From: Candidatus Stahliibacteriota bacterium
GTDB lineage: Bacteria > Hydrothermota > Tepidihabitantia > SM23-42
Length of the DNA: 33,316 bases
Direction of reading: 5' to 3'
Assembly (NCBI GenBank): GCA_030613445.1
Contig: JAUWLY010000003.1
Span: 1 to 33,316 of the forward strand
The number at the start of each line of letters is the position of its first letter. Within the stretch, counting starts at the first letter, position 1. Position numbers and translations under genes: made by a program. The notes under the pieces are model-generated. The model was not told the origin of the DNA, did not search any database, and saw only the letters and a program-made list of their open reading frames with translations. Below, piece by piece: positions 5,076 to 31,203 of this stretch.

Positions 5076-6014
5076 TTATTCTGAACTGAGATCATCAGTC
5101 CATTCAGGCACTGCAGCCCTGAATATCGTATCTATGGTCTGTCTGAAACCCTCATCAAGTCCGCATCTTTCTAACTCGGTCAAAGCGTATCTGTATTCTT
5201 TAGTAGTGATACGCCGGTTTATCTCAGGAGCCTGACTGGCTTTATAGGTTGGATAGTACTGGGCCATAACGTTTACAACAGTATGGGCTGAGAGGTGTTG
5301 ACTGACAAACTTAAAGCATATCCTACTGCCGGCGATATCGTTGGGCAATACAAGATGTCTTATCAGAAGACCTCGTTGGGCAATGCCATTTTTTACTTTC
5401 AAATCACCTACCTGTCGATACATCTCTCGCAGCGCTGGTCTCACAATATCCCAGTAATCTGGCACTATTGAATATTTTTCAGCGTGTTTATTATCAGCAT
5501 ACTTAATATCCGGCATATAGATATCAATGACCCCTTCAAGCAGCTTAAGGGTTTCAAGAGATTCATAACCACCGCAATTATAGACGATGGGGATGTTCAA
5601 TCCCTTGTCTTGTGCAATCGCTAGCGCCTTCACGATCTGCGGTACCCATGGCGTCGGTGTCACAAAATTTATGTTGTGGCAACCCAGATTCTGTAACTTA
5701 ATCATCATTTCGCCAAGCTCTTCCAGTGTCCTCTCTCGACCCATGCCGAGTTGACTGATTTGATGATTTTGGCAGAATACGCAATGCAAATTGCAGTTAG
5801 TGAAAAAAATCGTTCCCGAACCATATCTTCCTACAAGTGGCGGCTCTTCTCCAAAATGTTGATGAAATGATGAAATTTTAACTTTTATCCCGGCACTGCA
5901 ATTACCGCTTTCGCCATCCAACCTTTTAACCTTGCATGCGCGTGGACAAATCCGACAAGGCGAAAGCAACTCATATAATTCGTCAACCAGTTCCTTGGTG
6001 ACCTTTTTTCCCAT
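5076..6014 (-). CDS. Radical SAM protein, COG1313 / PflX-like
   Basis: N-terminal CRICPRAC, GSGTIFFTNCNLHCVFCQNHQIS (CxxxCxxC), NINFVTPTPWVPQI, DIYMPDIKY, RGLLIRHLVLPND. Confidence 0.85.
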   Translation of the reverse strand: MGKKVTKELVDELYELLSPCRICPRACKVKRLDGESGNCSAGIKVKISSFHQHFGEEPPLVGRYGSGTIFFTNCNLHCVFCQNHQISQLGMGRERTLEELGEMMIKLQNLGCHNINFVTPTPWVPQIVKALAIAQDKGLNIPIVYNCGGYESLETLKLLEGVIDIYMPDIKYADNKHAEKYSIVPDYWDIVRPALREMYRQVGDLKVKNGIAQRGLLIRHLVLPNDIAGSRICFKFVSQHLSAHTVVNVMAQYYPTYKASQAPEINRRITTKEYRYALTELERCGLDEGFRQTIDTIFRAAVPEWTDDLSSE

Positions 6015-7131
6015 TTTTGCCTTCTTGCTTTACCCCTTGTCGCCTTCTCTTCACCCTCTTTAAGCCCTCTTTCCGCCCTCTGTTGTTGTATCCATATTTG
6101 TAGTAAGCGGCACAGGAACCTTCAGATGACACCATGCAAGGACCAACCGGGGTCAATGGAGTACATTTCTTGCCATACAATTTGCACTCGACTGGCAGAC
6201 TTATCCCCAGCAGAACTTTGCCGCAAATACATCCCTTGGGGATAACCGATTTCGGTACTTCTACTGAAAATCTTTTCAATGCATCATATTTGCGATATCG
6301 GATCTTGAAAGCCAATCCTGATTTGCTAATCAAACCAATACCACGCCAGTTTGCATCGCATGGTTCACAGACTGTATATAATATCTCAAGCGCCTTCTGG
6401 TTGCCTTCTGGTTTGACAACCTTGCTATACTCAATAGTGATTTCTGCCTTCTTATCTGTCAGTTGCTTTACGAGATTCAAAATGCCGCGCAGGATATCGA
6501 CCGGTTCAAACCCCGTAACACAAGCAGGCATATGGTATTGTCTCGACAGAAACTCATAAGGTTTAGTACCGATTATCGCGGATACGTGACCAGGTAAAAT
6601 AAATCCTTGAACATTTATACGCGGTGAACTAGCAATGAAATCTAAAGCTGGTGGTATCAGTTTAAGAGCCGGCAAAACATAAAAGTTACTGATCCCCCTT
6701 GTTTCAGCAGCCAAGATAGTTGCAGCAATTGTTGGCGACGTGGTCTCAAAACCGACGCCGATAAAAACAATATCTTTGCTCTTATTGCCTTCGGCAATAC
6801 TCAAAGCATCCAGAGGTGAATATACTAGTTTTGGCGCATAAGGTTCTAAGCTCGATACAGTACCAGGTACGCGTACCATATCACCAAAAGTTACGATAAG
6901 AATATTCTTGTCTTGAGCAAGTTTGATGGCATAATCTATGGTTTCCTGAGCAGTAACACAGACTGGACAACCAGGACCTGATAATAATTTCAATTGTTCA
7001 GGCATCATTGTTCTGATACCAGAACGGGCAATTGACATGGTGTGAGTACCACAGACTTCCATTAGACTAATTTGCTCAGCGCTCAAATCGGATATTGTCC
7101 GAACGATCTTTGAGATAATATTATCCATCAA
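5983..7131 (-). CDS. hypD: Hydrogenase maturation protein HypD, with an extra basic low-complexity C-terminal tail
   Basis: MEVCGTHTMSIARSGIR, LLSGPGCPVCVT, FGDMVRVPG, GFETTSPTIA, and C-terminal Cys cluster KGCICGKVLLG...ECKLYGKKC...GPCMVSSEGSCAAYYKY. Confidence 0.93.
   Translation of the reverse strand: MMDNIISKIVRTISDLSAEQISLMEVCGTHTMSIARSGIRTMMPEQLKLLSGPGCPVCVTAQETIDYAIKLAQDKNILIVTFGDMVRVPGTVSSLEPYAPKLVYSPLDALSIAEGNKSKDIVFIGVGFETTSPTIAATILAAETRGISNFYVLPALKLIPPALDFIASSPRINVQGFILPGHVSAIIGTKPYEFLSRQYHMPACVTGFEPVDILRGILNLVKQLTDKKAEITIEYSKVVKPEGNQKALEILYTVCEPCDANWRGIGLISKSGLAFKIRYRKYDALKRFSVEVPKSVIPKGCICGKVLLGISLPVECKLYGKKCTPLTPVGPCMVSSEGSCAAYYKYGYNNRGRKEGLKRVKRRRQGVKQEGKNGKKGHQGTG
6024..6081 (-). 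repeat. Degenerate ~11-nt tandem repeat inside the hypD 3' end
   Basis: Minus strand: GGGCGGAAAGA / GGGCTTAAAGA / GGGTGAAGAGA / AGGCGACAAG / GGGTAAAGCAAG. Confidence 0.6.
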
Positions 7132-19851: not shown

Positions 19852-19859
19852 CCACTGTC

Positions 19860-19936
19860 TGTCATCTGATATCCGTTATCTGTCATCCGTTATCTGTCAT
19901 CTGATATCCGTCATCTGTCATCCGTTATCTGTCATA
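19860..19936. repeat. Heptanucleotide tandem repeat, 11 contiguous units of consensus YGWYATC
   Basis: TGTCATC TGATATC CGTTATC TGTCATC CGTTATC TGTCATC TGATATC CGTCATC TGTCATC CGTTATC TGTCATA, uninterrupted 7-nt phase. Confidence 0.95.
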
Positions 19937-20777: not shown

Positions 20778-20851
20778 CGGGGCGTAGCGCAGCGGTTTAG
20801 CGCGCATGGTTCGGGACCATGAGGTCGTGGGTTCAAATCCCACCGCCCCGA
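20778..20851 (+). tRNA. tRNA-Pro (anticodon CGG)
   Basis: Acceptor CGGGGCG/CGCCCCG; D arm GCGC...GCGC; anticodon stem CATGG-TTCGGGA-CCATG (anticodon CGG); T arm GTGGG-TTCAAAT-CCCAC. No encoded CCA. Confidence 0.95.
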
Positions 20852-20903
20852 TTATTAGGGAATAGGGAACAGGATACAGGGAGCAATAATGGCAAAGAAA
20901 ATA
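20834..20903 (+). repeat. 70-bp perfect direct repeat, copy A (3' end of tRNA-Pro plus spacer plus duplicated gene start)
   Basis: CAAATCCCACCGCCCCGATTATTAGGGAATAGGGAACAGGATACAGGGAGCAATAATGGCAAAGAAAATA, identical to 21011-21080 (offset 177). Confidence 0.96.
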
Positions 20904-21010
20904 GTTATGATAAAGGTAGTCGTGGGTTTCCCGTTTCTATCATAAATTTTTTCTTGAAGGAAACGGGATCCCGATTCCTTGAAATTAAAATATATAATGG
21001 GAAATCGGGA

Positions 21011-21080
21011 CAAATCCCACCGCCCCGATTATTAGGGAATAGGGAACAGGATACAGGGAGCAATAATGGCAAAGAAAATA
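21011..21080 (+). repeat. 70-bp perfect direct repeat, copy B (tRNA 3' remnant plus start of the 21066 CDS)
   Basis: Identical to 20834-20903. Confidence 0.96.
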
Positions 21081-28537: not shown

Positions 28538-29842
28538 CTATTCTTGCGGAAGGAATTCAATCTCACCTTCCGGACCTAAGGTGGCTACCCTTGTTAGATA
28601 GTCGCGGAAACTCAATGTTTCGCCCATTTCATCGATCAATAGCATTTCATAATAGTATTTGCCATCAGCAACGACTCGACCGATATCATCGAGTCCGTCC
28701 CAGGAGAGTCTCAGAGGCGGAGCTTCCCATCCCGCATAAGTCCTGACGACTTCTCCATACTGATTCTTTATCAGAAGCTGCCAGCGTTCAATTGGTCTTT
28801 TTGCATTATAATGGACATCCATCCAGGCTATATTCTCCTTCCGACCTGGGGTCGGAGAAAACTGCTTGGGTGAAGCCTCAACCCAGGTTCTAAAACCTGA
28901 GAAATTCACAGAAATCCCCATTTTATGTCTCAGCGGTACCAAATAACTTGAGGCATAATGCAATTCTATGGCATAGTCCAAGCCGACTGAGAATTTATTC
29001 CAGTCCTTTCTTAGACCCAAACCAGCACCGATATGGTTGCGATCAATGCCACCGCGGAGAGTCACCATTGGGTTTATCGGGATAAATTCCATCCCTACAT
29101 GATAATCAACTGCTGTGTAATCCAGAACATTTTTAACAATATCTACAGCAATAATCACTCTCTTCCTATACAATTTCAGCGCTACGCCACCGCGAAAAGT
29201 AATGGGAATCTCATCAGTCTGCGTGTCGTGGGTAAGTTTTGGACCGAGTATATTCTGACAGGTAAGACCGATCGTCAGATTACCGCGCGGGAACAACAGA
29301 ATACCTAGATCACCGCCCATTCCCAACGCACCATATTGGGCTATCTTGCTCGCCATCACCTTAACATTTATACCCACACCAAGCGGTCGCCACGGCTGGT
29401 ATGCATAAGAAAATAAAAAACAATCCTGGTAAAACTTAAACGTACCAAAGGGGTTACCATTTGCGTCCCATGAATCAACGTCACCTGAACCATGATATAT
29501 CAATCCAAAACCCAAGGAGCCGTATTTTCTCGTCGGCAGAGCATAGCCAAGATAGCCGAGTTGAGTGCCCAAAAGTGATAAATAGGATGATTTGATGTTA
29601 TGGGACAAGAGTTGTACTAAACCTGCTGGGTTAAAGTACACTGCTTCTTGATCGTCTGCAAGACCCGTGAATGCTTTGCCCATCGCAATCGTCCTCGGCG
29701 TCATACCATAATTAAGGAGAGCACCGGGAACACCACCATCCTGGGCTTCAACAATAGCAGGCAGTAAGCAGTAGGCAGTAAGCAGCAAAAATAATATTAT
29801 ACGCTCTACGCTCAACGCCTTACGCCTTACGCTCTTTACCAT
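28538..29842 (-). CDS. PorV/PorQ-like outer-membrane beta-barrel protein with C-terminal FlgD-like domain
   Basis: NYGMTPRTIAMGKAFTGLADDQEAVYFNPAGLVQL; barrel-like strands; C-terminal WQLLIKNQYGEVVRTYAGWEAPPLRLSWDGLDDIGRVVADGKYYYEMLLIDEMGE. Confidence 0.85.
   Translation of the reverse strand: MVKSVRRKALSVERIILFLLLTAYCLLPAIVEAQDGGVPGALLNYGMTPRTIAMGKAFTGLADDQEAVYFNPAGLVQLLSHNIKSSYLSLLGTQLGYLGYALPTRKYGSLGFGLIYHGSGDVDSWDANGNPFGTFKFYQDCFLFSYAYQPWRPLGVGINVKVMASKIAQYGALGMGGDLGILLFPRGNLTIGLTCQNILGPKLTHDTQTDEIPITFRGGVALKLYRKRVIIAVDIVKNVLDYTAVDYHVGMEFIPINPMVTLRGGIDRNHIGAGLGLRKDWNKFSVGLDYAIELHYASSYLVPLRHKMGISVNFSGFRTWVEASPKQFSPTPGRKENIAWMDVHYNAKRPIERWQLLIKNQYGEVVRTYAGWEAPPLRLSWDGLDDIGRVVADGKYYYEMLLIDEMGETLSFRDYLTRVATLGPEGEIEFLPQE
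29758..29834 (-). repeat. Two in-phase heptanucleotide arrays inside the PorV-like signal-peptide coding region
   Basis: Minus strand: GAGCGTA AGGCGTA AGGCGTT GAGCGTA GAGCGTA | TAATATT ATTTTTG | CTGCTTA CTGCCTA CTGCTTA CTGCCTG (11 x 7 = 77 nt). Confidence 0.95.
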
Positions 29843-31203
29843 ACCACACCTACCTTCATTCTCTTCTCAAATATTGTTGCCGTATGAGTCCACCCTTTTA
29901 TTATGGCATAGTACAGTCCAGTAGCAACTCGTTCGCCTTCATTATTACGGCCGTTCCATGTTATCCTATTGAGACCGCTATGTGCTCCCTCGCTACCCGG
30001 TACGATATCTTCTTTATAGACCAGATTACCAAAGGGATCATAAATCGCGAAAATAACATCACACGAACCACTGAGATAATAGGCGAAATATATCCTATTA
30101 CCTACCATACCCATAGGATTGGGGTAAGCGATAAAAGAATCCGGTACGACTGTTGTATCGATATAGGCCAATATATCGAGATAGCTTCGATACGATACAA
30201 TACTATTTACATTATCTTCTACCCAAAGTGGTGTATTGTCTTCTGCCTGGAAAAACCTCACGGTGAATTGTGCTTCACCATTATTTAGATTTTCAGATGG
30301 GGGGCTGGAAAATGCGAAATCTGAATGTATATCTATTGAGTATCCAGTAGCCGATGTCTTATTCCACATCGAATCTGTTGCATAGACCAATACATCAAAG
30401 TCTTCGTTCACGTATTTATCCTGGGCTTCTCCATCTTTGCCAGGCGTGGCTGAAGTAGCACTTGTTGTATCACCAGGCAGATGTGTTTCACCATCAAGAA
30501 TAACAAGTAGTGCGCCATAAGAACCAGGGCTTATTGCTAGCTGTGACGAAGCATCTGGGGTTATCGAACCGGATGTCACATCATCGAAAAATAAGCGGTG
30601 CTGCAGCCCTGCAGTTCTAAAAGCAAAGGGTAATATCACCGTACCGTTCACCAACTGAACCTGTGCCTGTACAGCAAAAGAATCAGTTGAACTGTAGCTA
30701 ACTGTATGATTTACAGTATCCACGATATTGAACCAATTATCAGTTATAAACACAGTGATGTTGAATTGCCCGCCTGCGGTTTGAGGAGCAGGAGGATTTA
30801 CTCTGCCTGGGGATAATCCAGGTGTGTACATCTGACCTGGAAGCACTGATAATAGTTGAGTTGGGATATTTGATCTAACCTGAAACTGATTTGAAGAACC
30901 TGTATGCCCGCCCCGATCATCACATATCAATGACATAGTATCAGCAGCAAGAGACACGCTTACATTACCTGTCCAAACACCATTGCTGAATTGCACAGTT
31001 TCATTACAATATCTGGGGTTTGCTGGGTCATCCCAGGATGTGTAGATATTAGCCCAGCCACCATAAGGATAGTTACCACCACCAGAATCATAAGCGTTAA
31101 CAGTTATCAGGAAAGATGCTCCAGCGGTCTGCGGTGAGGTAATTGTAGTAAACCCAAAATGATCTAATTGGCTAAAGAGAAGAATTGCGATTAGGCTAAT
31201 CAA
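29836..31203 (-). CDS. Secreted protein with Ig-like repeats and C-terminal FlgD/T9SS-type domain (TTG start)
   Basis: Signal-like N-terminus; YPNPMGMVGNRIYFAYYLSGSCDVIFAIYDPFGNLVYKEDIVPG...WNGRNNEGERVATGLYYAIIKG. GGAGG SD upstream of TTG 31203. Confidence 0.8.
   Translation of the reverse strand: MISLIAILLFSQLDHFGFTTITSPQTAGASFLITVNAYDSGGGNYPYGGWANIYTSWDDPANPRYCNETVQFSNGVWTGNVSVSLAADTMSLICDDRGGHTGSSNQFQVRSNIPTQLLSVLPGQMYTPGLSPGRVNPPAPQTAGGQFNITVFITDNWFNIVDTVNHTVSYSSTDSFAVQAQVQLVNGTVILPFAFRTAGLQHRLFFDDVTSGSITPDASSQLAISPGSYGALLVILDGETHLPGDTTSATSATPGKDGEAQDKYVNEDFDVLVYATDSMWNKTSATGYSIDIHSDFAFSSPPSENLNNGEAQFTVRFFQAEDNTPLWVEDNVNSIVSYRSYLDILAYIDTTVVPDSFIAYPNPMGMVGNRIYFAYYLSGSCDVIFAIYDPFGNLVYKEDIVPGSEGAHSGLNRITWNGRNNEGERVATGLYYAIIKGWTHTATIFEKRMKVGVVW

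Follow-up and report, generated by a model that had tools for sequence, protein, structure and literature searches.

Heptanucleotide arrays at the start of a PorV-like gene of Stahlbacteria: a predicted signal peptide with fixed borders and changing repeat words

The PorV-like gene and its arrays

The window analyzed here, that is, the whole stretch of 33,316 nt from Candidatus Stahliibacteriota, carries on its minus strand a PorV-like gene (porV hereafter), the start of which overlaps the stop codon of the gene upstream. The features of this junction, and one further array in the window, are the following.

28538 to 29842, minus strand: PorV/PorQ-family outer-membrane protein gene, 434 aa, with a C-terminal FlgD_ig-like domain (NCBIfam, Pfam)
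29836 to 31203, minus strand: upstream gene with a C-terminal FlgD_ig-type domain, overlapping the porV start (ORF, domain search)
29836 to 29842, minus strand: overlap ATGGTAA, formed by the porV start ATG and the upstream gene's stop TAA; conserved in orthologs
29744 to 29842, minus strand: predicted signal-peptide-coding DNA, MVKSVRRKALSVERIILFLLLTAYCLLPAIVEA; n-region with charge +4, h-region, VEA at positions -3 to -1, A/G-QDGG junction
29800 to 29834, minus strand: five (A/G)(A/G)GCGT(A/T) heptamers encoding the basic n-region; in-frame TAG avoided via TTG
29786 to 29799, minus strand: two AT-rich heptamers, TAATATT ATTTTTG, at the start of the h-region; weak match to the period
29758 to 29785, minus strand: four CTGCYTR heptamers encoding the hydrophobic core LLTAYCLLP; two 14-mer copies, the final base varying
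19858 to 19935, no strand assigned: intergenic heptamer array of ATCTGTC/ATCCGTT words; two 35-mer copies, 6 nt past one gene and 35 nt ahead of the next

Membership of the PorV family is indicated by a score of 111.5 bits against the NCBIfam model NF033709 (PorV_fam, cut-off 90), and the C terminus matches Pfam FlgD_ig. The protein reaches only 22.7 of the 250 bits required by the equivalog model NF033710 (PorV) and 86.4 of the 220 bits required by NF033711 (PorQ). A sequence search of the PDB returned no relatives; the best PDB fold matches of an AlphaFold model, which is of low confidence (mean pLDDT 52), are the T9SS translocon chains 8gl6_F and 6h3i_F, together with FadL-type barrels. Since the organism's own genome contains at least 150 matches to the sorting domain Por_Secre_tail, it very likely has a type IX system. 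In family and genomic setting, and tentatively in fold, the protein resembles T9SS PorV, from which it differs by missing the equivalog cut-offs and by its extra FlgD_ig-like domain, and its T9SS role is putative. Several genomes of the same family (G007, G011, G014 and G017-G022), mostly from one genus (g5), have no close porV ortholog.

From 29834 down to 29758 on the minus strand, the start of the gene consists of 11 heptamers in register: GAGCGTA AGGCGTA AGGCGTT GAGCGTA GAGCGTA, then TAATATT ATTTTTG, then CTGCTTA CTGCCTA CTGCTTA CTGCCTG. The block falls inside codons 1-33, and both its units and its translation are identical to those given in a preliminary description of this DNA. TRF independently detects 29761-29785 and 29800-29835, each with period 7, while the two AT-rich units in between count only weakly as heptamers, through their register rather than their sequence. 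Within the 99 nt of signal-peptide DNA, 52 of 92 comparisons match at lag 7, a number that neither 100,000 shuffles of codon order (maximum 42) nor 50,000 versions of the same peptide written in synonymous codons (mean 29.7, maximum 48) ever attain. Consequently, the period belongs to the DNA and does not simply follow from the amino-acid sequence.

The two main words behave differently when translated. A pure CTGCYTR array is open in all three frames, while in a pure GAGCGTA array every frame runs into a stop (ERRA*SV), and the sole in-frame junction expected to give TAG reads TTG (Leu10), as it does alike in G000, G002 and G003. As evidence of translation, this avoidance is partly circular because genes are recognized only where frames are open, which is not true of the conserved borders described below. 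The resulting peptide has the shape of a Sec signal peptide, with a mean hydropathy of 2.76 in its h-region IILFLLLTAYCL, and would presumably be exported by Sec and cleaved between VEA and Q.

Fixed borders and changing words among orthologs

In all 16 order-level orthologs, and in class-level outgroups, the gene starts at an ATGGTRA-type overlap with the upstream stop (the start being GTG in one ortholog). A AAGGTAGG-like ribosome site is conserved as well. The far border is equally constant, with an A/G-Q-D/E/G-GG junction common to the 16 orthologs, the mature start of PorV being typically QDGG. Between these borders, the segment varies from 19 to 72 codons, and it is open and in frame in every ortholog. 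By simple scoring, each of the 16 combines a net-positive n-region, a hydrophobic core and a small residue (A or G) at -1 with the conserved mature start. With start, frame and mature N terminus all conserved, translation of the arrays is very probable, and with it their role as n- and h-regions of the predicted signal peptide. This agrees with the preliminary description, which had also named a conserved start downstream of residue 30 as the finding that would tell against it; such a start was looked for in the orthologs and not found, and two of them (G023 and G025) offer no alternative ATG, GTG or TTG up to codon 90 of their open frame. The further suggestion that an intergenic repeat had been exapted as a secretion signal finds no support, because outgroup orthologs with ordinary signal peptides (e.g., L019, L021 and L022) begin at the same ATGGTRA overlap. 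The site therefore already coded for a signal peptide, which the heptamers overwrote.

What lies between the borders differs from genome to genome. Nine of the 16 orthologs (G000, G001, G002, G003, G004, G005, G006, G010 and G016) exhibit a period of 7 with z scores of 4.1-8.2 relative to codon shuffling; control lags of 4, 5, 8, 10, 11 and 13 average near zero, lag 14 being the exception. The other seven fail this statistic, so arrays are not required, and one of these seven, G023, has TACTTTC units discernible by eye in its h-region only. The words themselves differ among genera, and include GAGCGTA, GGCGTAG, CTGCYTA, ATAACCG/ACAGATA-like units and, in G016, five perfect copies of CTTACTT. 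On the tree, well-supported branches require heptamer coding to have been gained or lost at least four times. A replacement can be polarized in one case: G001 has kept the CTGCYTA array and carries, in place of the GCGTA heptamers, a 128-nt dispersed repeat of which mostly partial copies are found across the genus and in G005. Since the GCGTA array is present both in its sister G003 (support 100/98) and in G000 and G002, which fall outside the pair, the replacement is derived in G001. The G023 ortholog (L014) is also peculiar in its 54-residue n-region, unusually long for a signal peptide and coded partly by three copies of a 17-mer, TTCGCAGGATCATTTCA.

Heptamers across the genomes

Array densities were estimated in sampled stretches of four genomes, ~1.3 Mb in all, using a simple ORF caller and a detector suited to degenerate units; a strict detector picks up hardly any arrays, owing to this degeneracy. 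Two porV segments, deliberately placed in the sample and counted separately, hold five period-7 arrays in 294 bases. Elsewhere, period-7 arrays reach 151 per Mb in intergenic DNA, 3.5 per Mb in ordinary coding DNA and 486 per Mb in type IX sorting domains (seven in 14.4 kb), the last figure being three times the intergenic one. Lags 5, 10 and 11 are rare, and lag 8 displays a smaller excess, chiefly intergenic. No link was found between intergenic arrays and neighboring sorting-domain genes. Other repeats in the window include a direct duplication of ~65 bp at 20841-21080, which runs from within the 3′ end of tRNA-Pro(CGG) to the start of the next gene with copies ~175 bp apart, and, at 5983-6090, the basic low-complexity tail of a HypD-like gene (GRKEGLKRVKRRRQGVKQEGKNGKK), coded partly by AGAGGGCTTAA-type 11-nt repeats at the overlap with the next gene.

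The porV words recur well beyond this locus, the same unit being found in many separate arrays, above chance, and period 7 exceeding the shuffled expectation. In the organism's own genome, three consecutive units match 33 times for RRGCGTA and 12 times for CTGCYTA (overlapping matches counted), while the backwards-read control matches 0 times. Triple arrays of RRGCGTA occur in all five genomes searched; among 80 genomes of the phylum, 19 contain triple CTGCYTA arrays. Some members of another family (G051, G053, G057-G060, G062 and G064) match the backwards-read control and apparently have a heptamer word of their own, ATYCGTC. Where RRGCGTA arrays lie within open frames, some of which are doubtful, 11 of 12 are antisense and thus read as stop-free TACGCYY; in porV the array lies in the orientation that bears stops, and a single substitution avoids the in-frame one.

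Heptamer-derived N termini, which the preliminary description expected to be enriched in related genomes, are met again in porV orthologs, but other genes show no enrichment of them. Only one of 164 sampled signal-peptide-like N termini has period 7, namely that of the PorV-like gene, and a general heptamer strategy for signal peptides is thus rejected. An apparent N-terminal enrichment in a first count was set aside, all four arrays being porV and the G001 porV contig having been chosen deliberately. A pattern search placed CTGCYTA also in the N termini of the paralogous, apparently secreted C194 and C338 of the organism's own genome and of one protein in G027, as well as in sorting domains, where it lies in the stretch from GRLVK to WDG. 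At least four words occupy recurring places in these domains: CAGATAT (TDIRYQIPD), CAGTAGA (SRQKSV), CTGCCTA (LLPTAYSLLPT) and TACGCYC (TPDALRPT). The places include the strand TDIRYQIP, SRQKSV and the loop from GRLVK to WDG, and examples are found at L039:16816-16878, L044:1627-1653 and L218:7216-7252, and in L224, L229, L246, L249, L309 and L314.

Origin and persistence of the arrays

The explanation that we favor, and consider likely, is that heptamers made by slippage persist where it is mainly composition that is constrained. The many dispersed, degenerate arrays of Stahlbacteria/WOR-3 genomes probably grew by replication slippage and would be mostly confined to weakly constrained DNA. 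Because the porV start overlaps the upstream stop, loosely constrained DNA at this junction would be limited to the signal-peptide segment, and arrays may repeatedly have expanded within it or replaced it. A seven-base array yields one repeating seven-residue peptide whichever frame is used, so a unit without a stop on one strand is open there in every frame, and array orientation then decides whether life inside a gene is possible. CTGCYTA and related words supply the hydrophobic core, and GCGTA words the basic n-region. Arrays would then persist because the peptide is independent of frame, the words are suitable, and signal peptides are recognized by composition more than by exact sequence. 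We infer that neutral tolerance, rather than benefit, keeps them. These data suggest that a secretion signal tolerates being overwritten by repeats provided that a basic-then-greasy reading remains. With a period in only one of the sampled N termini, permissive signal peptides cannot by themselves account for the frequent hits at porV; we conjecture that its targeting, compared with other signal peptides, reflects the absence of a spacer at the overlapping junction. The density in sorting domains is likewise not predicted by pure permissiveness.

As a variant of this explanation, a single array in the ancestral porV of the order could have been inherited, and have decayed or been re-homogenized into different words. 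The h-region core words are indeed alike (TACTGCY, TACTTCT and TACTTTC), yet we hold this variant to be doubtful, given the gains or losses forced by the tree (possibly losses after one gain), the unrelated repeat in the G001 n-region, and the genera with ordinary signal peptides interspersed among the others.

That arrays are instead selected in type IX genes, in the signal peptide of porV and the sorting domains of the cargo, to diversify or tune secretion is unlikely. Coding arrays do cluster in exactly these places, often at the same positions of the domain and mostly in the stop-free orientation. However, relaxed constraint equally predicts clustering in tolerant loops and strands, the shared descent of the domains inflates the array counts, intergenic arrays unlinked to sorting-domain genes are abundant as well, and most signal peptides have no array.

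Phase variation, in which slippage by one heptamer would shift the frame and toggle PorV and PorV-dependent secretion, has a precedent in Neisseria opa, where an outer-membrane protein has CTCTT coding repeats in the same gene part, its leader peptide (PMC3960869). The unit here is likewise not a multiple of three and lies within a coding region; an array longer or shorter by a single unit leaves the window's protein truncated at 33 or 44 aa, a change of three units brings the frame back, and G016 has its five perfect CTTACTT units. Against this, the arrays of the window are short and imperfect, the 16 orthologs include no off state, and the equally long segments of G000, G002 and G003 differ by substitutions within units, making phase variation decidedly unlikely. 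We regard as more improbable still an active, perhaps dedicated diversification process preferentially rewriting type IX genes, namely the PorV signal peptide and the cargo sorting domains; if it were real, microsatellite growth would shape which proteins reach the cell surface. An outer-membrane barrel requires a signal peptide, which already counts against an untranslated array. The reading that translation really begins beyond residue 30, leaving the repeat as an intergenic, perhaps regulatory leader, is extremely improbable, since the conserved ATG, overlap and ribosome site, the open segments of variable length and the two orthologs with no other start all contradict it, even though most heptamer arrays of these genomes lie between genes and Beggiatoaceae heptamers upstream of starts are proposed to be regulatory (PMC4679880).

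The porV case combines elements known separately. The resemblance to opa (PMC3960869) lies in a short tandem repeat, with a unit not divisible by three, in the 5′ leader-peptide-coding region; unlike in opa, the porV repeats are heptamers, present in few and degenerate copies, the n- and h-regions come from two successive words, the words turn over between species, and frame switching is not seen in the 16 orthologs. Heptamers are over-represented among bacterial simple repeats, and dispersed, mostly intergenic heptamer arrays like those seen here include the STRRs of cyanobacteria, the GGGAATC-type repeats of Xanthomonas and Nostoc, and TAACTGA of Beggiatoaceae (excerpts of PMC4679880 and PMC4692102). 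The cyanobacterial parallel drawn in the preliminary description stands as an analogy and nothing more, the host being a member of WOR-3/Stahlbacteria. As far as those excerpts go, the known arrays are mainly intergenic, whereas the Stahlbacteria arrays cross signal-peptide- and sorting-domain-coding DNA, and many heptamer words coexist in one genome. A literature search of partial coverage located no paper on heptamer-coded signal peptides or on WOR-3 repeats. Kaiser et al. in 1987 reportedly found that random sequences act as secretion signals for yeast invertase, very diverse sequence being accepted; the porV case differs in being natural and bacterial, with the sequence supplied by repetitive DNA. 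What is new is the combination of leader-peptide coding repeats with dispersed heptamers, the words being replaced between species within fixed borders.

The PorV-like gene of Stahlbacteria thus provides a clear natural case in which repetitive DNA supplies apparently working protein sequence, the borders staying fixed while the interior is rewritten in other heptamer words between species. With close relatives, two old questions become testable: what minimum of sequence information suffices for a bacterial signal peptide, and whether simple repeats within genes amount to noise that is tolerated or generate variation that is of use. Since the same words are concentrated in type IX sorting domains, the question widens to the whole secretion system.
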